Source: Candidatus Obscuribacterales bacterium (GTDB lineage: Bacteria; Cyanobacteriota; Vampirovibrionia; Obscuribacterales; Obscuribacteraceae). From it: 64,000 bases of DNA. Where the stretch lies: assembly GCA_949127735.1 (NCBI GenBank), contig CASBPX010000065.1, forward strand, positions 1 to 64,000. Reading direction: 5' to 3'. Position numbers and translations under genes: made by a program. The notes under the pieces are model-generated. The model was not told the origin of the DNA, made no database searches, and was given only the letters and a program-made list of their open reading frames with translations. Below are positions 31,593 to 42,847 of this stretch, piece by piece. How positions within the stretch are numbered: position 1 is the first letter of the stretch; the number at the start of each line of letters is the position of its first letter.

Positions 31593-31931
31593 TTAACGGC
31601 CAGAGAATTCTTTCATTACTTGCCCGTACCGCTTGCCCACTGCGCCGCAAACGATGTCGCAGAGCTCGTATATGCTGCTGTCGCCAATGCTGTAGTAAAC
31701 GAACAATCCCTGCCGCCGCTTTTGAACTATGCCCTGTTCCGATAACACAGATAAGTGTTTGCTGACGTTGGCCTGACTCAATTTGCTCAACTGACATAAT
31801 TCCTGCACTGAGCACTCTCCTTTAAAGAGATACTGCAGAATTTGCAGGCGTGATGCATCTGAGAGAGCGCGGAAACGTGCGGCGACAATTTCGAGCGCCG
31901 GTCGCGATAACTGCTTGTTTTTGTCTTTCAT
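31593..31931 (-). CDS. ArsR-family transcriptional regulator (possible thiol/persulfide sensor)
   Basis: RFRALSDASRLQILQYLFKGECSVQELCQLSKLSQANVSKHLSVLSEQGIVQKRRQGLFVYY; Cys in ECSVQELC and YELCDIVC; divergent from the rhodanese operon. Confidence 0.85.
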   Translation of the reverse strand: MKDKNKQLSRPALEIVAARFRALSDASRLQILQYLFKGECSVQELCQLSKLSQANVSKHLSVLSEQGIVQKRRQGLFVYYSIGDSSIYELCDIVCGAVGKRYGQVMKEFSGR

Positions 31932-31989
31932 AAGATTTATAGATGCCAGGCTAACTAACTCCATTATATAACTGATGAGTTGATTCTGC

Positions 31990-32033
31990 AATCAACCTTT
32001 TGGTTGATTCGCTGTATAACCAATTGGTGATAT
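31990..32033. promoter_or_regulatory. divergent operator region with two inverted repeats
   Basis: AATCAACC-TTTT-GGTTGATT (perfect) and TATAACCAATTGGTGATA (imperfect) between ArsR and rhodanese starts. Confidence 0.6.
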
Positions 32034-32063: not shown

Positions 32064-32645
32064 ATGTCAGAACCGTCGACGTCTAATTCTGTTGTTTGTG
32101 AGCAGATAGCTCCTGCTGACCTGGCCGCGAATGCCGGACCGACTGTACTGCTAGATGTTCGTAGCCCAATTGAATTTGAGACAGAGCACATAGCAGATTC
32201 CATCAATTTACCCATGGGTGAGCTAGAAGCCCGCTTCGAAGAGGTGCCCCGTCAAGGTCAGCTTGTGGTCATATGTAGATCTGGCAAGCGAGCTGAACGT
32301 GGTGCATATACATTGCTAGGTAGAGGCTTCCAGCCTCAAGTTCTGGATGGTGGACTGCTCGCGTGGCGAAAGGCCGGGCTACCGCTTAAGGAAGGTAAAA
32401 AAATGCTGCCAATTGAAAGGCAGATCCAGCTCGTCGTTGGTATTGGCGTTTTGACAGGCGTGCTGTTGGGGTTTTTCGTCAATTCCTGGTTCCTTGTCAT
32501 TCCTGTGTTTTTCGGAGCGGGGCTGACGTTCGCAGGTGTGACTGGAACGTGCGCTTTAGGGATCATATTGGGAAAGGCTCCGTGGAACAAATTGCAGACA
32601 CCATCGGTCGCCCGCAATGTTCGTAAGACTGATTGTTGCCCGTAG
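32064..32645 (+). CDS. rhodanese-like domain plus DUF2892-type membrane protein (YgaP-like)
   Basis: LLDVRSPIEFETEHIADSINLP, VVICRSGKRAERGAYTLLGRGF; two C-terminal TM segments. Confidence 0.9.
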   Translation: MSEPSTSNSVVCEQIAPADLAANAGPTVLLDVRSPIEFETEHIADSINLPMGELEARFEEVPRQGQLVVICRSGKRAERGAYTLLGRGFQPQVLDGGLLAWRKAGLPLKEGKKMLPIERQIQLVVGIGVLTGVLLGFFVNSWFLVIPVFFGAGLTFAGVTGTCALGIILGKAPWNKLQTPSVARNVRKTDCCP

Positions 32646-32663: not shown

Positions 32664-33416
32664 ATGTTAGGCGGCGCTCTTTCGGGGATTGCCACAGGCA
32701 CATTACTTGGACTGCTCGGTGGAGGGGGAAGTATCATCGCTGTTCCCATTCTTGTGTATGTTTTCGGAATGGAAGCCAAAGCGGCTATTGGCACAAGTCT
32801 GCTTATTGTTGGTGTGGCAAGCCTGCTGGCGGCATGGAGTCATCACCGCGATCACTCGGTACTTGTTTCCACTGCGCTTGTATTCGGTGTAACAGGAGCT
32901 TTGGGCGCTTTTGCCGGCGCCAGGCTGGCACACAATATTTCAGACGTAGTGCAACTAACCATGTTCGCATTGGCGATGGCCCTTGTCGGGCTGCTCATGC
33001 TGAGACCTGGAAAAGCGACTACCGAGGCTGTTAGTGAGCCAAGCGTCACCGCACTACCAGTGGTGCTGGTAGTTGGGCTAGGCGCCGGTCTGTTGACTGG
33101 CCTGCTTGGTGTTGGCGGCGGATTTATAATTGTGCCTGCAATGACCATGCTTTTGCATCTGCCAATTAAGAAGGCGATTGGCACTTCATTGGTAGTTGTA
33201 GGCATCAACAGCATGGTCGCCGCGATCTCGTATGGTTCGTCCATCAATCTAAGTTTTGCAATTTTGCCTTTCGCCATAGGCACAGTTGTAGCGGCCCCGA
33301 TTGCTGGTCGATTGGCGCATTACATTCCCCAAGAAAGGCTGAAGACTGGCTTTGCGATTTGTCTGCTCATATTGTCTGCCTGGATGATGGGAAAACAGTT
33401 TTTAGTTAACTCTTGA
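32664..33416 (+). CDS. TauE/SafE-family sulfite/anion exporter
   Basis: GTLLGLLGGGGSIIAVPILVYVFGMEAKAAIGTSLLIVG, GLGAGLLTGLLGVGGGFIIVPAM. Confidence 0.9.
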   Translation: MLGGALSGIATGTLLGLLGGGGSIIAVPILVYVFGMEAKAAIGTSLLIVGVASLLAAWSHHRDHSVLVSTALVFGVTGALGAFAGARLAHNISDVVQLTMFALAMALVGLLMLRPGKATTEAVSEPSVTALPVVLVVGLGAGLLTGLLGVGGGFIIVPAMTMLLHLPIKKAIGTSLVVVGINSMVAAISYGSSINLSFAILPFAIGTVVAAPIAGRLAHYIPQERLKTGFAICLLILSAWMMGKQFLVNS

Positions 33417-33419
33417 CGG

Positions 33420-34847
33420 TTGGAGGTTGATATGTTTTTCAAACAGTTTTATCTCGGTTGCCTGGCTCACGGCTCCTATCTGCTCGGTTCAGACGGTGAA
33501 GCCGTGGTGATCGACCCACAGAGAGACGTTGATCAGTACATTGAGGAGGCACAAGCACAGGGGCTCAAGATTAAGTATGTGATTGAAACGCACCTCCATG
33601 CCGACTTTGTCAGTGGGCACAGAGAGCTTTCGGAAAGAACCGGTGCGCAGATCGTTTTCGGCGAAAAGGCTAAAGCTACTTTCCCGCACATTGCCACCAG
33701 AGATGGTGACATCCTCAAAGTGGGCAGGCTGGAATTGAAGACATTTGAAACACCGGGTCACACACCTGAGAGCATTTGTATTCTCGCAAAAGATACGGCA
33801 GAAATTGGCAGTTCTGAAAAACTCTTCACCGGCGATACTCTCTTTATCGGAGACGTCGGACGTTCTGATCTGGTCGGGGCCAAAGGTCATACTGCGCAAG
33901 AGATGGCCGGACTAATGTACGAGACTCTTCACCGCAAGCTCCTCAATCTAAATGATGCCGTGGAAGTTTATCCGGCTCATGGGGCCGGCTCGCTCTGTGG
34001 TAAGCACCTTTCAAATGAAAAGTCATCGACTATCGGTCAGGAGAAGAAGTTCAACTATGCGTTAAAGCCTATGTCTAAAGAGGCTTTTGTTGAAATGATG
34101 ACTGCCGATCTACCAGAAGTGCCCGCCTATTTTCCCGAAGATGTGGAGATCAATCGCCGTGGTGCCGCGCCGTTGAGCACCATGGCGAGACCTCTGCCAC
34201 TAGACGCAGCCGCAGTGGCGAAGCAACTGGAGCGCGGTGCCCTCTTGCTCGATGTTCGCAGTGCAGTCGAGTATGCGGGTGGGCACATCAAAGGTTCGTT
34301 AAGCATCGGACTGGGCGGGCAGTTTGCCTCATGGGCAGGTACGCTGATCAAGGTTGGTACTCCCATAATTATTCTGGCAAATAGCCCGGCCGAAGTTGAT
34401 GAGGCGGTTATGAGACTTGCCCGCGTTGGCTTCGAGACCGTGGTCGGCTATGGCGACGCGATTGAAGGTTGGAGCAAGGGTGGCTTGGAAGTAGTTCGGT
34501 CGCTGATGGTAACTGTTGATGAACTGAATCAGATGCACACTGAAGGCGACGAAAAATTTGCGGTTATTGATGTTCGCCGCACTGGAGAATTCAACAGCGG
34601 ACACGTGCCGAACGCCATACATATTCCATTGGCTAATCTACCTGAGCGGCTCGGTGAGCTGCCGGCAGGCAAGTTGGCTCTCATTTGCGCCAGCGGTTAT
34701 CGTTCGACAATGGCGATGGGAATTCTGGAAAGACACGGAATGGTCACTGCTATGAACGTACTTGGTGGAACCAATGCGTGGAAAGCTGGCGGCTATGAAA
34801 TTGTGACTGAAAAAGAGGGGGCGAGCGAAAAAATAGCAATTGTTTGA
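33420..34847 (+). CDS. MBL-fold hydrolase (persulfide-dioxygenase-like) with two rhodanese domains
   Basis: ETHLHADFVSGHRELSERTGA, FETPGHTPESIC, FTGDTLFIGDVGRSDL; LLDVRSAVEYAGGHIKGS and VIDVRRTGEFNSGHVPNAIHIPL...LICASGYRS. Confidence 0.92.
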   Translation: MEVDMFFKQFYLGCLAHGSYLLGSDGEAVVIDPQRDVDQYIEEAQAQGLKIKYVIETHLHADFVSGHRELSERTGAQIVFGEKAKATFPHIATRDGDILKVGRLELKTFETPGHTPESICILAKDTAEIGSSEKLFTGDTLFIGDVGRSDLVGAKGHTAQEMAGLMYETLHRKLLNLNDAVEVYPAHGAGSLCGKHLSNEKSSTIGQEKKFNYALKPMSKEAFVEMMTADLPEVPAYFPEDVEINRRGAAPLSTMARPLPLDAAAVAKQLERGALLLDVRSAVEYAGGHIKGSLSIGLGGQFASWAGTLIKVGTPIIILANSPAEVDEAVMRLARVGFETVVGYGDAIEGWSKGGLEVVRSLMVTVDELNQMHTEGDEKFAVIDVRRTGEFNSGHVPNAIHIPLANLPERLGELPAGKLALICASGYRSTMAMGILERHGMVTAMNVLGGTNAWKAGGYEIVTEKEGASEKIAIV

Positions 34848-34894: not shown

Positions 34895-36649
34895 ATGATA
34901 GTTAACGGTTCCGACATGGCCCCAAAGAAAATTGTCATCGTCGGTGGTGTCGCTGGTGGAATGAGTGCAGCTGCAAGAGCGCGACGCCTTTCTGAAGATT
35001 CGGAAATTATCGTCTTTGAACGAAGCGGCTACGTCTCCTATGCCAACTGCGGCTTGCCGTATTTTCTAGGGGGCGAGATTAACTCGCAAGACCAACTGAT
35101 CGTGGTCACACCTGACGCATTGAGAACCAAGCTCAATCTTGATATTCGCGTCCATCATGAAGTCGTGGAAATCAACCCGAAGACAAAGGTCATAACGGTA
35201 AGAGAGACGACTACTGAAAAGATCTACCAGGAAAGTTACGACGATTTGATTCTTTCGGTGGGTGCCGCCGCCATCAGACCGAACGTACCTGGAATCGAGT
35301 TGCCTGGGCTGTTCACGCTCCGCAATATAGAGGATGTTGAGTCGATTCAATCTTGGTTTGATGATCGAAAGCCACGCACAGCGGTAGTGGCCGGTGGCGG
35401 CTTCATCGGTCTGGAGATGGCAGAGCAGCTAGTTCGCAGGGGACTGGATATTACACTAATTGATGGCAAAGAACATGTGCTGGCGCCACTTGATATTGAA
35501 ATGGCGGAACTCGTGCACGATGAACTGCGCCACCATAAAGTCAAACTTGTACTGGGACAAACTATTGATGGCTTCCTTGCACCGGACCAACAAGTGGCAA
35601 CCGCAGAAGATGTTCCAAAATCATGCTGGGTTCTGGCCAGCGGACACGAGCCAATCCCAGCCGATCTTGTTATCCTCGGACTAGGAATTAGACCGGAAGT
35701 AATGCTGGCGCGTAATGCCGGATTAACCATTGGTGAGCGCGGTGGCATTCGGGTAAATGAAAATTTGCAAACTAGTTCACCGCACATATGGGCCGTAGGC
35801 GATGCCATTGAAGTGCGCAATCCAGTGAACGGCGAATGGACACTGATCGCTCTGGGAGGCCCGGCCAATCGCCAGGGACGAATTGCGGCAGACAACATTT
35901 TTGGCGCAAAACAAACTTATGATGGCACCATCGGCACTGCCATCCTTCGAGTTTTCGATCTGACCGTGGCATCGGTTGGACTGAATGAAGCGCAATTGAA
36001 ATCGATGCTTCCTTACGAGGCAATCTACCTGCATCCAAGCCATCACGCCAGCTATTATCCAGGGGCCGAGCGGCTTGACATGAAGGTGCTCTTCAATAAG
36101 GAAACCGGCACATTGCTGGGCGCGCAGGTGATCGGCAAGGAAGGGGTCGACAAGCGTATAGACGTCTTCGCTACCGCGTTAAAGGCGCGCATGAGCATAC
36201 GTGATTTGTCCGAGCTGGAACTGGCTTATGCACCGCCTTTTGGCTCAGCCAAAGATCCAATAAATCTAGCAGGAATGGCCGGTTCGAATGTCTTCGATGG
36301 CTTGACTGAGCAAGTGCAGTGGCATCAAGTGCCAGCATTGAGCATGGACGGGGCTGTAATTATCGATGTTCGCACTCGTGGTGAACGCGCTAAAGGCTAT
36401 ATCGATGGCAGTCTTCACATTCCGCTTGCTGAGCTAAGAAAACGGTTGTCGGAGATACCAGCGGAAAAAGAAATAATCACGTACTGTCAGAGCGGTCAGC
36501 GCTCTTACAACGCAACTCGTTTGCTCAGACAGAAAGGTTTCAAAGTAAAAAATTTAGCTGGTGGATATCTGACATGGAACTCGATGCAGTCAGCAGGCAA
36601 GAAATTAGGATTAGACCAGCATAGCGCACCACCAGTGATGGCAAGATAG
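34895..36649 (+). CDS. FAD-dependent CoA-disulfide-reductase-like oxidoreductase with C-terminal rhodanese
   Basis: KIVIVGGVAGGMSAAARARRLSEDSEIIVFERSGYVSYANCGLPYFLGG, HIWAVGDAIEV, IIDVRTRGERAKGYIDGSLHIPLAELRKRL...TYCQSGQRSYNATRLLRQKGF. Confidence 0.92.
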   Translation: MIVNGSDMAPKKIVIVGGVAGGMSAAARARRLSEDSEIIVFERSGYVSYANCGLPYFLGGEINSQDQLIVVTPDALRTKLNLDIRVHHEVVEINPKTKVITVRETTTEKIYQESYDDLILSVGAAAIRPNVPGIELPGLFTLRNIEDVESIQSWFDDRKPRTAVVAGGGFIGLEMAEQLVRRGLDITLIDGKEHVLAPLDIEMAELVHDELRHHKVKLVLGQTIDGFLAPDQQVATAEDVPKSCWVLASGHEPIPADLVILGLGIRPEVMLARNAGLTIGERGGIRVNENLQTSSPHIWAVGDAIEVRNPVNGEWTLIALGGPANRQGRIAADNIFGAKQTYDGTIGTAILRVFDLTVASVGLNEAQLKSMLPYEAIYLHPSHHASYYPGAERLDMKVLFNKETGTLLGAQVIGKEGVDKRIDVFATALKARMSIRDLSELELAYAPPFGSAKDPINLAGMAGSNVFDGLTEQVQWHQVPALSMDGAVIIDVRTRGERAKGYIDGSLHIPLAELRKRLSEIPAEKEIITYCQSGQRSYNATRLLRQKGFKVKNLAGGYLTWNSMQSAGKKLGLDQHSAPPVMAR

Positions 36650-36714
36650 TTAGGGAGGCAAGTTTTTGGATGAACGAATCGATAAAGACACTAAAAAGAA
36701 AGAGGCAAATTCCC

Positions 36715-36903
36715 ATGGAAAGTATGATCTGGTTGTTCGGCATTGTTTTAGTCTACTTTGCTCTGCAACTCTGGATACTGCCGAAGCTTGGCATATCTAC
36801 TTGAATGTCGCGTAGCTGCTCGGTCGAGCAGCCGAAGACAACGCGTAATCAGCCAGAAGAAAAAGAGCCTATCAAGCATGGTGAACCAGGCAAAAGCGAT
36901 TAG
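36715..36903 (+). CDS. candidate small membrane selenoprotein (62 aa if TGA at 36802-36804 is read as Sec; 29 aa otherwise)
   Basis: MESMIWLFGIVLVYFALQLWILPKLGIST(U)MSRSCSVEQPKTTRNQPEEKEPIKHGEPGKSD*; GAGG 9 nt before ATG 36715 (alternative ATG 36670); hairpin GCTGCTC-GGTC-GAGCAGC at 36815-36832, loop 17 nt after TGA. Confidence 0.55.
36815..36832 (+). promoter_or_regulatory. candidate bacterial SECIS hairpin
   Basis: Perfect 7-bp stem with GGTC tetraloop directly 3' of an in-frame TGA. Confidence 0.45.
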
Positions 36904-38602
36904 CTCCAGCTGTTTGACGCTGTTGTGCGTACTGATAGCACTTAGCCTCAGCGGTGCTGCGTGGTGCGAAGAGGGCCAGCCGACTGTTGCTCCAAGCTCA
37001 CTAGCTATGGGTGCGCGGTGCACAGAAGATGCCTCATGTGTAATTGTCGGCGACACGCACATGCTGGAATGGAAGAGCCCGGCTCCAGCCAAAATCGTTG
37101 TCGTGTGCATCCACGGCCTCGGTCTGTGCGCGAGGGCATACAAACCGCTAGCCAGAGAGTTCTCTGCGGCAGGCATTGATGGATTCGGTGTGAACGTGCG
37201 TGGCTTTGGTCCAGACAGAGACAAGCCAGAGCGTGCAAAATTGAATTGCGTAGAGACAGTAGGCGATGTAGGCAAGCTGCTTACCAGCATCCATAGAGAT
37301 CACCCTGATTACAAGGTGTTTCTTGTCGGTGAGTCAATGGGGGGTGCTCTCGCTATAAGAATCGCCGTTGAGAATCCAGGACTAGTAGATGGTGTCATTT
37401 GCTCGGCGCCGGCATGGAAATTACTCAAGGTGCGTGGAACGGCGGTGAAAGGCGTCTTTGAATTGTTTGTGTTTCCCGGAAGTCAGCCAGGTGCTGCCTC
37501 GCGAGCCGTCATGCACCAGGCCACCACAGACCCTGAGCTTACTGAGCACTGGCTGACAGATCCGTCTCACAAGTTGAAACTAACCTTCAAAGAAGCCACT
37601 TCTTTCTTGAGCTTCATCTCCAAGACAGAAGTCTACGCCAAACAACTGACAATACCAATCTTGGTTGTTCAAGGGCTCGATGATCATCTGGTTTCACCGG
37701 AAGCCGTTGCCAAACTTGTCAGAGACATCCCTTCCGGTAGCAAAACTTTTCTCATCGATGGCGAGGGCGAACATCTCCTTCTTGAAGAAGCAAAATTCAC
37801 ACCACTGTTGGTAGAGAAATTAATCAGCTGGATCAAGATTGACGCCATCGATAAATTTAAGACAGAAACCATCGAAGTCTTGAATGATCAAGCTCTTTCG
37901 CCTCAAGGAAAGCGGCGTTTGCAGGCATTATTGCGACTGGCCAAGACGAAGTTTGCAGTGAAGTGGGCTGGGGCTTTGCGAAATGTCCATCAGGGTTTAG
38001 ACTTTAGTGGCACGATTGCCCTGCCACCACTGGCAGAGCTACCGCATCTGTACGCGGTCGGTCCGTTGGAAGATCTGCTTGGCGAGGTCACGATATGGGA
38101 CGGCAAGGCACTGATTTCAAGGATAAAAGACGGGACGCTCAAGATCGATAATGTTCTTAGTAACAAGGCATGCTTTCTCGTATACGCTCAGGCGCGAGCG
38201 TGGAAGCGAATCAAGATTGGTTCTTCTGTGATCTTGAGTGAAGTCGATGGCGTGATAAAAAAGCAGGCCACTAAATGCGGTATCAAAACCAACCGTCCAT
38301 TTCCATTTTTGATTGAAGGCACAGCAAAAAACGCTCGATATCATGTGATGAACCGAACAGATTCGTCACCACCCGCGCCCGGCCCATCAGCTCATGAACA
38401 GGCAAAGGTCCGCTTTACGATCAAAAACATGCCGGTTCAGTTGCTCGGTTTTTACTCTGAGCATCACCAGGGTATCTTCACCCACCACAGTAGCTTCACT
38501 CACGTGCACGTAAAGACGAAGGACGGCAAAAATGCCGGACACTTAGAAGATATGCAATTGGAACCAGGAGCACTGCTGCTGCTGCCGAAGGGGTATCAGT
38601 GA
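36878..38602 (+). CDS. alpha/beta-hydrolase (lysophospholipase-like) fused to an acetolactate-decarboxylase-like domain, secreted
   Basis: VVCIHGLGLCARAYKPLAREF, VFLVGESMGGALAIRIA, LVVQGLDDHLVSPEA; C-terminus LYAVGPLEDLLGEVTIWDGKALIS...THVHVKTKDGKNAGHLEDMQLEPGALLLLP; start moved to ATG 36878 (signal peptide follows). Confidence 0.7.
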   Translation: MVNQAKAISSSCLTLLCVLIALSLSGAAWCEEGQPTVAPSSLAMGARCTEDASCVIVGDTHMLEWKSPAPAKIVVVCIHGLGLCARAYKPLAREFSAAGIDGFGVNVRGFGPDRDKPERAKLNCVETVGDVGKLLTSIHRDHPDYKVFLVGESMGGALAIRIAVENPGLVDGVICSAPAWKLLKVRGTAVKGVFELFVFPGSQPGAASRAVMHQATTDPELTEHWLTDPSHKLKLTFKEATSFLSFISKTEVYAKQLTIPILVVQGLDDHLVSPEAVAKLVRDIPSGSKTFLIDGEGEHLLLEEAKFTPLLVEKLISWIKIDAIDKFKTETIEVLNDQALSPQGKRRLQALLRLAKTKFAVKWAGALRNVHQGLDFSGTIALPPLAELPHLYAVGPLEDLLGEVTIWDGKALISRIKDGTLKIDNVLSNKACFLVYAQARAWKRIKIGSSVILSEVDGVIKKQATKCGIKTNRPFPFLIEGTAKNARYHVMNRTDSSPPAPGPSAHEQAKVRFTIKNMPVQLLGFYSEHHQGIFTHHSSFTHVHVKTKDGKNAGHLEDMQLEPGALLLLPKGYQ

Positions 38603-38625: not shown

Positions 38626-39195
38626 ATGATTCAAAGCGATAAGGAGGTTCAGTCAATGCGAAAAGCGAAGTATTCGAATATTACGAAAGCCAAGGTCCGC
38701 GCCATAGTTCTCGCCGGTCTGACTGCTTTGGGGGGAATGGTCTGTTTTTTTGCAGAAGCGTCTCTAGCTCAGAATCAGAGCAATAAATTGCCAGCGTCAC
38801 CAATTAAAGCCTCCCTTAGTAGTGATACACCGAAGGTCATTCCGGGTAAGCCATTCACCCTGTTCGTCGTCTTCGATATGGAGCCCGGATGGCACATTTA
38901 TTACAAAGACCCTGGGCAAAGCGGCATGCCGACGCAAGTCGATTTGACTTTACCCAAAGGTTTCGCAGCACAGGCGCTAAGCTGGCCGCCACCGGAAACA
39001 TTCAAGGAAGTCGGCATTGTCACATACGGATATGCAAAGAAGCTGCGCCTTTCAACAATGGTGACGCCTTCCAAAGATCTTAAACCCGGAGAGTCGATCA
39101 AGATAAAAGCGGCAACAAGCTGGTTGGCTTGCAAACATAGTTGTGTTCCTGGAACCAGCTCAATTTCACTCGATCTAAAAGTCCAGACGAAATAG
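38626..39195 (+). CDS. secreted DsbD N-terminal (alpha)-domain-like protein
   Basis: EPGWHIYYKDPGQSGMPTQVDLTLPKGFAAQALSWPPPETFKEVGIVTYGYAKKLRLS...SWLACKHSCVPGTSSISLDL. Confidence 0.8.
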   Translation: MIQSDKEVQSMRKAKYSNITKAKVRAIVLAGLTALGGMVCFFAEASLAQNQSNKLPASPIKASLSSDTPKVIPGKPFTLFVVFDMEPGWHIYYKDPGQSGMPTQVDLTLPKGFAAQALSWPPPETFKEVGIVTYGYAKKLRLSTMVTPSKDLKPGESIKIKAATSWLACKHSCVPGTSSISLDLKVQTK

Positions 39196-39211: not shown

Positions 39212-40984
39212 TTAAACTTTGGTTGCTAACCGAGGCTTGTCGCCAAGCATCTTCTCAAGTCCGGAGGTGTCTGAGGGAGCCTGAGTCAGCCATGGCACCA
39301 CCGCAACGCGGCTGGAGAGTTGCTCTACTTCTTTGATGTATGCTTTTTCGTTTACTTGACGGCTGAGCAAAACAGGATTTGCAGTCTCAACCGGAGATAG
39401 CGACTGATTGATTATCCATGCAAATGGATGAATATCGGCTCTGGCAAGATCCTCTTGCAGGCGCTTTGCCTCATGCACCGGAGTGGCTTCCGCCAACGTT
39501 ATGATCAATATACGAGTAAATACTGGGTCTCGTAGTCTCGGCAATAAATTAATCACGGAGTCAGGCATGTTACTTGATTGACGCATTACTTCTTTGTGAT
39601 AAGCCTGGGCGGCATCTAGCAGCAGGATTGTGTGTCCGGTTGGTGCCGTATCTAGTACCACAAAACCAGCTTGTCCCTTGGCGACAATGTTGGCAAAACT
39701 TCTGAACACTGCTACTTCTTCAGTACAAGGAGAGCGAAGATCCTCGTCAAGCAGAGCTCGCCCCTCGTCATCAAGATTGCTGCCTGCGCTTTGCATAACT
39801 TCCTTTTGATACGCTCTGGTTTCTTCGGCAGGATCTATTCGACTGATCGTCAGGTTCGCAACTGAATGCTCCACGACCCAAGAGATGTGAGCGGCCGGGT
39901 CTGTTGTGCTCAAATGCACTGGATTGCCTCGACGCGCCAGTTCTACTGCTATTGCCGCAGCAATACTCGTTTTGCCGACACCACCTTTGCCCATGGTCAT
40001 AATCACGCCTTTTCCTGCTTTCTCCAGCTCGTCGACGATATTAACTAGAGATTGCGGAAGTTTGTCATTGCTTGATTCGTGTGCAGGAGCAATTACTGAG
40101 GCTTCAAGGTTGAACATACTGCGAAGCGCCTTCACACCAAGCAGTGCAGTTGCACTCAGTAGTATTTCCTGGGTAGGAAGCTTTTTCAATGACTGCGGCA
40201 TGGAATCCATCGCCGCCTGTGCACGGGTGGCAAACGCGGTCGCTGTAGCATCACCAGTAGTATCAGCGCTGAGAACACCATTTAATACCAGGCATTGATT
40301 GGCGACGCCAATCTCCATCAGCTCAGCGCTTGTGTTTGCGGCTTCCCGCAATGCTGATTGCTCTTGGCGCGAAACAAGCACGAGCGTTGTGCGAGCACCG
40401 TCCATGAGTGTGCGAACTGACGAAGCGTAAGTGTCTTGTTGTTGTTGAAGCCCAGCAAGAGGACCGAGGCACGATGTGCCGGTTGTATTGCCTTCAATAA
40501 AGGTGGTCCAAGATTTTGGCAAAGACAGAAGACGCATGGTGTGGCCGCTCGGGGCCGTATCAAATATAACGTGATCGTAGTTAGCGGTGTGATTAGCATC
40601 GCCGAGAAGACGAGCAAACTCATCAAATGCGGCAATCTCAGTTGTGCATGAGCCAGACAGTTGTTCTTCCATGCTCTTTAAACTTGCCTCCGGCAACAGA
40701 CCACGATAAGGGCTAAGCAGTCTTTCCCTGTATTCAAGTGCGGCCGCTTCCGGATCGATATTTAAGGCATCAAGTCTGCTTACACCGGGCACTGATGTTG
40801 GAGTCGACTTCAGGTCGACATGCAGCACTTCGTCGAGGTTCGAGGCCGGGTCTGTGCTTACGAGCAATACTCGTCGCCCTTTGTCGGCCAGCGCAATTGC
40901 TGCTGCGCAAGAAACGGAAGTTTTGCCTACTCCACCCTTGCCGGTAAAGAACATGTATTTGGTGGCTTGTTCAACCAGGTTCAT
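39212..40984 (-). CDS. arsA: ArsA arsenite-efflux ATPase (tandem A1/A2 halves)
   Basis: FFTGKGGVGKTSVSCAAAIALAD and TMGKGGVGKTSIAAAIAVELA; two DTAPTGHT/DTAPSGHT motifs. Confidence 0.95.
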   Translation of the reverse strand: MNLVEQATKYMFFTGKGGVGKTSVSCAAAIALADKGRRVLLVSTDPASNLDEVLHVDLKSTPTSVPGVSRLDALNIDPEAAALEYRERLLSPYRGLLPEASLKSMEEQLSGSCTTEIAAFDEFARLLGDANHTANYDHVIFDTAPSGHTMRLLSLPKSWTTFIEGNTTGTSCLGPLAGLQQQQDTYASSVRTLMDGARTTLVLVSRQEQSALREAANTSAELMEIGVANQCLVLNGVLSADTTGDATATAFATRAQAAMDSMPQSLKKLPTQEILLSATALLGVKALRSMFNLEASVIAPAHESSNDKLPQSLVNIVDELEKAGKGVIMTMGKGGVGKTSIAAAIAVELARRGNPVHLSTTDPAAHISWVVEHSVANLTISRIDPAEETRAYQKEVMQSAGSNLDDEGRALLDEDLRSPCTEEVAVFRSFANIVAKGQAGFVVLDTAPTGHTILLLDAAQAYHKEVMRQSSNMPDSVINLLPRLRDPVFTRILIITLAEATPVHEAKRLQEDLARADIHPFAWIINQSLSPVETANPVLLSRQVNEKAYIKEVEQLSSRVAVVPWLTQAPSDTSGLEKMLGDKPRLATKV

Positions 40985-41379
40985 TGATTTTCCTTTGAAT
41001 TAACCGGCGGAGCGCTGCAGCAACCAGAGCCGACGGCAACTTGTTGTTCAACAGTAAATTTGAGCCCGCTCTTGGGCGCCTCAAGACCGGCCATCTGAGC
41101 CAGTTTATCTCGTTTTGGATAGGCGCCTTGAAAAATTATTTTTCCATCGACAAGAATAAGAGGAAGGCATTCGTTGCCGTCTTTCTTGAGCGCATCGGTG
41201 ACGGTGGCGTTGCTCACGAAGGCCTGCGTCTGTTGGGATAGATTGTACCGCTCTACTTCAATTCCCTGGCGCTTCAGCCAATCAAGATCAGCTGTGAACT
41301 CAACAAGGGCTGGATCGACACCTGGTCCACAGATACCGGTTGAACAGCACATTGGTGGATCGAAAATCTGGACTTTCAT
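40981..41379 (-). CDS. arsD: ArsD arsenic metallochaperone
   Basis: MKVQIFDPPMCCSTGICGPGVDPALVEFTADLDWLKRQGIEVERYNLSQQ; C-terminal GCCSA. Confidence 0.95.
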   Translation of the reverse strand: MKVQIFDPPMCCSTGICGPGVDPALVEFTADLDWLKRQGIEVERYNLSQQTQAFVSNATVTDALKKDGNECLPLILVDGKIIFQGAYPKRDKLAQMAGLEAPKSGLKFTVEQQVAVGSGCCSAPPVNSKENQ

Positions 41380-41471
41380 TTTTAGCTCCTTTTCCTTTCA
41401 AGACCGACACTTGTCGGTCCCAGTTCCGTACTGTTAACTTTTAAGATTGATTTTTTGCAATACCCCTCTCG

Positions 41472-41582
41472 TATTCCTGCTCCGATGCAGAGAAATACCC
41501 AGACTGTAAGCCAACGTTCGAAGAATCCAATCGACGCTTCTTCAGGTGGATTCGCTATTGTCTCTTCCGCTTGCGTGATCAT
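41472..41582 (-). pseudogene. N-terminal remnant of ACR3-type arsenite efflux permease
   Basis: MITQAEETIANPPEEASIGFFERWLTVWVFLCIGAGI resembles the ACR3 N-terminus; diverges after GAGI and stops at 41382; sits between arsC and arsD. Confidence 0.6.
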
Positions 41583-41658
41583 CGACTGTTATCCAGCTCC
41601 AAATTGTAAATGCGTTGCGCGTGTGGTCAACATTGGGAGCGAGACGGAACGCACCTTG

Positions 41659-42060
41659 TTACTTTGCGACTTTCGTTCTAGCCAATTGTTCGACTTTCGT
41701 TTTAATTTCATCACGGACACGGCGAAATTCTTCTATTGGCTGGCCCTTTGGGTCGTCGATAGCCCAGTTTGCCTGCGTGCCAATGAATGTGGACGGGCAG
41801 AAATCAGCTGTTTTGATGGAGCACATGGAAATCACGGCATCGTAGTCACCAAGCTTCTCGCTGTCGATTGCTTTGGAGAATTGCTTGGATATGTCAACTC
41901 CTGATTCGTCCATCACTTTTATTGCGTCAGGGTTGACGCCAGTGCCTGCTTTGACGCCCGCGCTATCTGCTTGGAGGCCGAATTGACGGCCAAATCCCTC
42001 AGCTATCTGGCTACGGCAGGTGTTCTCGGCACAAATGAATAGAACCTTCACTGACTGCAC
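41659..42060 (-). CDS. arsC: ArsC low-molecular-weight-phosphatase-type arsenate reductase
   Basis: VKVLFICAENTCRSQIAEGFG P-loop (C-x5-R), AVISMCSIKTADFCPS, WAIDDPKG; GTG start. Confidence 0.9.
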   Translation of the reverse strand: MQSVKVLFICAENTCRSQIAEGFGRQFGLQADSAGVKAGTGVNPDAIKVMDESGVDISKQFSKAIDSEKLGDYDAVISMCSIKTADFCPSTFIGTQANWAIDDPKGQPIEEFRRVRDEIKTKVEQLARTKVAK

Positions 42061-42548
42061 TCCTTCTTTCCGATTTGTACTGGTACAGCTTCTGGTACTA
42101 TCTCTGGTACTATTTCTGATACTGCCTCTGGTGCACAGCAAGCGGCTTTGCTTTCGCGCGGGAGCTGTACATCTTCGCCATAAGTGGTTGCTTCGCCGGT
42201 GGTATAGAAGGACTCCCAGGCGATTCCTTGCGGATCGTGAACCCATGTTTTGTCCGATTGTGCATAACAACAAGTAGTTTTCTCTTGCTCAAGGATGTCT
42301 TGCTTGGCTTGTTTTAGCCGCAGAGATATTTCCTTCAATGAGTCGTCGTCATCAACCTGAATTCCCAGGTGATCGAGACCTGGTTGGGTTCCGCGTTTTG
42401 AGATAGCGAAATTAATGCGTGGATCATCGAGCATCCACTTTGCGTAGTCTTCTTTCTGAACAGATGGTTGGGTGTTGAAGAATGTCGTATAGAACTGAAT
42501 AGATTGATTCAGATCTGCTACTGCAACATGGACGTGAAACCTTTTCAT
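42048..42548 (-). CDS. arsI: ArsI/CadI-family VOC metalloenzyme (organoarsenical C-As lyase-like)
   Basis: MKRFHVHVAVADLNQSIQFYTTFFNTQPSVQKEDYAKWMLDDPRINFAIS, LDHLGIQVDD, TTCCYAQSDKTWVHDPQGIAWESFYTTG. Confidence 0.9.
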   Translation of the reverse strand: MKRFHVHVAVADLNQSIQFYTTFFNTQPSVQKEDYAKWMLDDPRINFAISKRGTQPGLDHLGIQVDDDDSLKEISLRLKQAKQDILEQEKTTCCYAQSDKTWVHDPQGIAWESFYTTGEATTYGEDVQLPRESKAACCAPEAVSEIVPEIVPEAVPVQIGKKECSQ

Positions 42549-42847
42549 TAGCAATTGCCTCCATTGTCGACGCAACAGTTTTCCATGAGGAAGCTCAGCA
42601 ATTCTTGCATTTGAGCATAATCAGCTGAATAGATAATTGATCTACTCTCGCGCCGTGACACTATCAAGCCAGCGTTGTTGAGTTCCTTCAGGTGGAATGA
42701 CATCGTCGCTGGTGGCATTCCAAAGTGGGTACTTAAATCGCCTGCCGCCATACCGGCAGTTCCCTTCCTGACCAGCAGGCGAAAAATTTCCAGACGTGAT
42801 TCTTGTGCCAATGCCGCCAGGGCGTTAACCGCGTTTTTCGTTTTCAT
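42548..42847 (-). CDS. arsR: ArsR-family repressor
   Basis: ALAALAQESRLEIFRLLVRKGTAGMAAGDLSTHFGMPPATMSFHLKELNNAGLIVSRRESRSIIYS. Confidence 0.9.
   Translation of the reverse strand: MKTKNAVNALAALAQESRLEIFRLLVRKGTAGMAAGDLSTHFGMPPATMSFHLKELNNAGLIVSRRESRSIIYSADYAQMQELLSFLMENCCVDNGGNC

Follow-up and report, generated by a model that had tools for sequence, protein, structure and literature searches.

In Escherichia coli fdhF, the UGA codon for selenocysteine (Sec) is followed by a hairpin whose apical GGUC lies ~17–18 nt downstream. The eukaryotic SELENOK and SELENOS proteins span the membrane once and carry Sec in a cytosolic tail that is disordered. Products of the Tso operon (i.e. TsoA with its LULAXC motif, NF045695, and TsoB, a rhodanese/DsbD fusion, NF045694) combine a rhodanese/DsbD neighbourhood with Sec placed near Cys or a second Sec. 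A 2026 review of prokaryotic selenoproteins recognises 119 families or subfamilies, including Sec-containing CoA-disulfide reductase-like and rhodanese-like proteins (PMC13188914, Table 1), and lists the NCBIfam accessions of three hypothetical families from the deep-Sep paper (PMC12013277). The same review describes a SECIS hairpin as having a G in the first two loop positions, a distance of 16–37 nt from the UGA and a folding energy of -7.5 kcal/mol or lower (PMC13188914).

The window, i.e. the whole 64,000-nt stretch of DNA that was analysed, derives from a fragmented MAG of a Candidatus Obscuribacterales bacterium with an estimated completeness of 78%. A short gene within it has the following features:

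36715–36903, plus strand: small membrane selenoprotein gene of 62 codons including the UGA (Sec30), with TAG as stop; translated with TGA as U; homologues have TGA or Cys at position 30
36702–36705, plus strand: Shine-Dalgarno-like GAGG, read from the sequence, 9 nt before the ATG at 36715
36718–36786, plus strand: predicted single transmembrane helix, residues 2–24 (AlphaFold2; 19-residue hydropathy window up to 2.27)
36802–36804, plus strand: UGA Sec codon in LPKLGIST-U-MSRSC, at a constant alignment position across ~145 homologues, replaced by TGT or TGC in Cys forms
36815–36832, plus strand: SECIS hairpin with a 7-bp stem and apical loop GGUC, from folding; its position and compensatory stems are conserved
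36817–36819, plus strand: codon of the partner Cys35 (U-x4-C), inside the SECIS stem; Cys35 is invariant in alignments A1 and A2

An earlier note on this DNA had proposed a selenoprotein here, and its coordinates for the GAGG, ATG, TGA, stem arms, loop and TAG, as well as the Cys spacing, were all exact on re-reading. Its interval, however, began at 36670; a real in-frame ATG occurs at this position but is not conserved, and homologues start at the equivalent of 36715. Beyond the in-frame UGA the frame stays open to a later stop (TAG, 36901–36903), as expected of a SECIS-directed selenoprotein gene; a Cys follows five residues on, and the readthrough product of 62 aa is MESMIWLFGIVLVYFALQLWILPKLGIST-U-MSRSCSVEQPKTTRNQPEEKEPIKHGEPGKSD.

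The genome of the window encodes SelA (G000:C56), SelB (697 aa, G000:C212), SelD (G000:C238) and tRNA-Sec (anticodon tca, G000:C96), so that the four genes for which the note had proposed a search, selA to selD, were all found. The locus thus resembles fdhF in its UGA, in the spacing of its GGUC hairpin and in the accompanying machinery, but the protein is unrelated, with 62 aa, one membrane helix and no known domain. Coding of Sec by this gene is nearly certain: the UGA at 36802 is almost certainly read as selenocysteine by SelB and tRNA-Sec, aided by the predicted hairpin 17 nt downstream. The insertion route is the ordinary bacterial one, whereas the protein family and its architecture are new. 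No consistent match to Pfam or NCBIfam 20.0 models was obtained for 23 diverse members, which also failed to match the models of the three hypothetical families of PMC12013277. A one-helix U-x4-C entry was absent from the table of the 2026 review (PMC13188914), with the families of Haft and colleagues being compared through that review and NCBIfam 20.0; overlap is possible with the unnamed candidates of a groundwater-MAG survey cited by PMC13188914, which lie outside this comparison. It is highly probable that the gene encodes a membrane selenoprotein belonging to a family of its own, a judgement that leaves its detailed role aside.

The architecture was examined by structure prediction and alignment. 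The AlphaFold2 model, computed with 18 sequences, consisted of a helix at residues 2–24 and a disordered tail, with pLDDT values of ~90 over the first 20 residues that fell thereafter. Sec30 lies just beyond the helix in LPxxGxxT-U-x4-C. Lys and Arg averaged 3.5 in the C-terminal flank versus 0.1 before the helix (58 sequences), from which the positive-inside rule predicts Sec to be on the cytoplasmic side near the membrane surface; the tail of the 62-aa protein is thus probably cytoplasmic. The likeness to SELENOK and SELENOS is one of architecture only, an analogy with no evident sequence relation, and differs in that Sec sits where the tail leaves the membrane and a bacterial hairpin serves its insertion. 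The spacing is U-x4-C, not LULAxC, and there is one helix only, in contrast to the Tso system; none of the 23 members matched NF045695 or NF045694 (for TsoA, no hit at E <= 0.5), and membership of TsoA was rejected on the unmatched model and on the family motif, T-U-[ML]-x-x-x-C. A thioredoxin fold with UxxC or CxxU was likewise rejected, there being no domain match and a prediction of one helix plus a disordered tail.

The note had placed the gene in a sulfur/rhodanese operon, and this setting was confirmed by Pfam and NCBIfam domains. A SulP-type transporter gene is also present upstream, and the other neighbours are:

31593–31991, minus strand: ArsR/SmtB-family regulator, divergent from the operon (NCBIfam NF033788 above cut-off; BigR and TsoR models below theirs)
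32064–32645, plus strand: rhodanese and YgaP-like transmembrane protein (Pfam)
32664–33416, plus strand: TauE/SafE sulfite exporter family protein (Pfam)
33420–34847, plus strand: metallo-beta-lactamase fold with two rhodanese domains, persulfide-dioxygenase-like, in the same operon (Pfam)
34895–36649, plus strand: CoA-disulfide reductase-like and rhodanese fusion, Cys form (NCGLP), directly upstream (Pfam, NCBIfam) and beside the gene in several Obscuribacterales
36875–38602, plus strand: alpha/beta hydrolase with an acetolactate-decarboxylase-like C-terminal region (Pfam); from its likely ATG it overlaps the final 29 nt of the selenoprotein gene
38626–39195, plus strand: DsbD N-terminal-domain protein (Pfam PF11412)

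Selenium is found with the same kind of sulfur chemistry as in the catalogued Sec-containing CoA-disulfide reductase-like and rhodanese-like proteins, but in the window it resides in the small membrane protein while those enzymes have Cys (NCGLP in the CoA-disulfide reductase). The hydrolase/acetolactate-decarboxylase-like fusion is itself unusual. On the opposite strand, at 39212–42847, tandem ArsA-like ATPase, ArsD-like, arsenate-reductase-like and ArsR-like genes (named by eye) form an arsenic-type cluster that converges on the sulfur operon, and ArsA and ArsD beside the selenoprotein gene recur in other Obscuribacterales. In some Obscuribacterales, a methyltransferase-like gene (~240 aa) is often immediately beside or near the selenoprotein gene (L060–L066, L078 and L090), followed in L066 by an ArsP-like permease.

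Neighbours of the homologues were also surveyed. Rhodanese and CoA-disulfide reductase genes recur in several Obscuribacterales; in other phyla, a thioredoxin gene is close by in L088 and adjoins the gene in L112, L114, L115, L120 and L151 (as it does in L090), genes of DsbD/CcdA type are near L087, L088, L152, L160 and L166, and a type-III sulfide:quinone reductase-like gene is near L092 and L109, with SQR_III as the best NCBIfam match, below cut-off. Sulfur and thiol genes numbered 16 per 100 kb at distances of up to 1.5 kb from the selenoprotein gene and fewer than 1 beyond 3 kb, an enrichment that is inflated because several of the query proteins were picked for adjoining the gene at one locus. 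A divergent TGA-containing paralogue in the same genome (G000:C81:12766-12888; L039:3767-3994) stands alone, apparently as a single-gene unit with a terminator-like hairpin after it. Sulfur genes are missing from the vicinity of many loci and this paralogue is on its own, so the role may be more general.

Computation established that the gene codes for Sec, that the U/C pair is conserved, that the protein has one helix and which genes surround it; from these features we infer the redox chemistry and the partners of the Sec30/Cys35 protein. The surrounding sulfur and thiol genes suggest a membrane-tethered selenol/thiol relay. Sec30 and Cys35 would reversibly form a selenenylsulfide (or a perselenide would arise), allowing the protein, tethered to the membrane, to relay electrons or sulfane sulfur, with thioredoxin, rhodanese and CoA-disulfide reductase as candidate cytoplasmic thiol partners and proteins of DsbD/CcdA type and sulfide:quinone reductase as candidate membrane partners. 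This function is moderately supported overall, and the chances of a thiol/sulfane-sulfur (persulfide) role are evenly balanced. A tentative alternative, of fairly low probability, is that the selenoprotein passes reductant from cytoplasmic thioredoxin to CcdA/DsbD-type membrane proteins and does not act on persulfides. The adjoining thioredoxin genes and the DsbD-like genes near L152, L160 and L166 are consistent with such a transfer, as are the DsbD_N protein of the window operon and the position of the Cys forms L087 and L088, which sit between thioredoxin and DsbD-like genes; yet it is CoA-disulfide reductase and rhodanese that are the direct neighbours in the window and its closest relatives, and both the orientation and the partners of the protein are predicted ones.

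A role in metal(loid) handling, in which the membrane selenol/thiol pair would bind or pass As(III) or similar for the arsenic genes, is unlikely. Both in the window and in some Obscuribacterales (among them L069, in which no rhodanese operon was found), the ArsA tandem and ArsD converge on the gene; an ArsP-like permease adjoins it in L066, and ArsR-family regulators are nearby. These ArsA and ArsD neighbours, however, were observed in Obscuribacterales alone and lie on the opposite strand, and distant phyla have thioredoxin, DsbD and SQR-like genes instead. Nor do the regulators point to arsenic alone, since ArsR-family proteins also sense persulfides. Returning to the relay, we give an even chance to the full proposal that an uncatalogued family of one-helix micro-selenoproteins, common in Desulfobacterota and Obscuribacterales and scattered over at least four other phyla, acts as a membrane-tethered selenol relay in the metabolism of thiols and sulfane sulfur and has been missed by gene callers and surveys for its shortness and its UGA split.

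Homologues numbering ~145 were found in Obscuribacterales, Desulfobacterota, Verrucomicrobiota, Planctomycetota, Myxococcota and SAR324, almost all with a single in-frame TGA at one alignment position and a Cys 5–6 residues on. A search of 60 related genomes yielded ~30 full homologues, and in nearly every one a single TGA stands in the same place; their DNA encodes LPxxGxxT, then TGA or TGT, then usually MSxSCSVEQ. GTDB species genomes were scanned with a pattern confined to the helix ([YW][FL][AV][LM]Q[LVF]W[IL]LP), which carries no bias towards U or C. The Sec position in the resulting 80 loci, from Obscuribacterales/Melainabacteria, Deltaproteobacteria/Desulfobacterota, Akkermansiaceae, Pirellulaceae, Myxococcota and SAR324, was TGA in 76, Cys in three (L054, L087 and L088) and CGA (Arg) in one (L118). 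When 148 Desulfobacterota genomes were sampled with a profile built from 23 members, 63 proved to carry the gene, and TGA lay within all hits but one weak one. This apparently places the family among the more widely distributed selenoproteins, and the bacterial selenoproteome gains a large family. The 20 Desulfobacterota members that were read closely all had the helix, LPxxGxxT, TGA and a Cys 5–6 residues later, and 18 of them had a hairpin of at least 5 bp. In Verrucomicrobiota, one of 146 sampled genomes was positive, this being the seed itself, and the family is not general in that phylum. No homologue was found in plasmid records. Every sequence in the protein alignments has the residues L, P, G, T, U/C and Cys35.

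Possession of tRNA-Sec was compared with the residue at position 30. In 39 genomes of the same order, tRNA-Sec was present in 23/23 genomes with the TGA form (Fisher p = 5e-5), while the nine genomes without tRNA-Sec had no TGA form and a single homologue, a Cys form (G035). For 29 genomes reached through named loci, tRNA-Sec was present in 24/25 with the TGA form and 0/3 with the Cys form (p = 0.001). The exceptions among TGA forms were L096, with no tRNA-Sec detected, and L094, with a marginal one, gaps that are perhaps due to MAG incompleteness. For that reason lone absences of tRNA-Sec are weak evidence, but the overall Sec/Cys pattern is not. Homologues with Cys at the TGA position, which the earlier note had suggested seeking, were found (L054 = L017/L053, L038, L087 and L088). 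The long-diverged Cys forms L087 and L088 lack a hairpin; it is still present in the Obscuribacterales Cys forms L017/L054 and L038, which fits recent Sec-to-Cys changes. Bin G005 holds both a TGA copy (C399, L025) and a TGT/Cys copy with an intact SECIS hairpin (C448, L038), so either Sec gave way to Cys very recently or the bin mixes two strains. In L054/G035, a Cys form with the ancestral hairpin kept, selA is present, tRNA-Sec was not detected and the overlapping hydrolase frame is broken; this looks like selenocysteine use being lost. The CGA-bearing locus (L118:3114-3200), whose genome has tRNA-Sec, encodes a tail just a few residues long and is probably a decayed copy.

The hairpin of the window comprises stem arms GCTGCTC (36815–36821) and GAGCAGC (36826–36832) around the loop GGTC (36822–36825), which starts 17 nt past the TGA, and lies within the SECIS limits of PMC13188914. 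When the 60 nt beginning at the TGA were folded, the hairpin lay inside a longer stem, at -18.3 kcal/mol (z = -1.86 versus dinucleotide shuffles); for this single sequence the energy is modestly better than chance and only suggestive. A chance origin is excluded by comparative evidence across the family. A scan that counted stem pairs identified a G-loop hairpin of 6 bp or more, suitably spaced from the TGA, in 66/89 members, versus 2.7% of dinucleotide shuffles and 5/88 upstream controls; an energy-based scan, in which closure of the whole sub-window was required, missed many of the hairpins. GGTC occurred at +15 to +25 in 63/104 TGA genes (~4.5 expected). Pairing was observed for 80% of positions in 31 distinct stem-arm pairs (e.g. 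CTGCTC/GAGCAG, CTGTTC/GAACAG, AGCACC/GGTGCT, CGCGCC/GGCGTG, TGAGTC/GACTCA and CTTTCC/GGAAAG) as compared to 58% (maximum 68%) after re-dealing arms among sequences, a signal partly shared through kinship, yet with changes falling on both sides of the same pairs. The GGUC loop and its position are thus kept while the stems vary with compensatory changes, and the selenoprotein reading of the earlier note is supported by the machinery, the conserved U-x4/5-C and this hairpin.

Termination at the TGA, giving a 29-residue peptide and leaving the hairpin as an RNA element of another kind (e.g. a terminator), is very improbable. A membrane peptide of 29 aa ending at this stop is possible, and the hairpin is rich in GC, but no T-run follows it. 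Frames of the homologues continue past the TGA position: in genomes without tRNA-Sec, Cys takes the place of TGA and the same MSxxC follows, Cys35 is invariant, and TGA, not another stop, occupies the position in nearly all members. This explanation is strongly disfavoured by the Cys forms, Cys35 and the recurrence of TGA, and was rejected. A decayed pseudogene or an assembly error, compatible with MAG sequence and with the CGA and very short tail of L118, is not viable given the comparative data and has a negligible probability, as the same TGA recurs across ~145 independent loci including one in Desulfoluna butyratoxydans MSL71.

The gene of MSL71, a deposited isolate genome, lies near 56.4 kb of NZ_CAADHO010000003.1 (L104), so the family should be testable. 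Annotation pipelines would truncate or drop such genes, and microproteins split by a UGA are a blind spot. The family ties selenium use to sulfide/persulfide and thioredoxin–DsbD gene neighbourhoods. It also brings selenoproteins to a non-photosynthetic order of Cyanobacteriota, where no prior report was found; literature searches on selenoproteins in Melainabacteria, or on the motif QLWILP, returned nothing relevant.

Conservation beyond the TGA is uneven. In Obscuribacterales, the first ten codons are nearly fixed and later codons drift, residues 11–32 being poorly conserved except where they overlap the hydrolase gene. The gap to that gene would be 70 nt if the TGA were a stop and becomes an overlap on readthrough; the hydrolase start overlaps the selenoprotein 3' end in five genomes (i.e. 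the window and L055, L056, L057 and L059), and this overlap accounts for part of the C-terminal similarity. The hairpin stem encodes CSVEQ in Obscuribacterales, and elsewhere the hairpin shifts and the residues after Cys change freely, so that SVEQ appears constrained by the RNA and only Cys35 by the protein; the conserved CSVEQ of Obscuribacterales looks largely dictated by the RNA hairpin. In one member (L085 = L034, G016), CSVEQ has been lost and a different hairpin, GCGAC-AGG-GTCGC, stands at the same place, which suggests selection on RNA structure rather than on the peptide.
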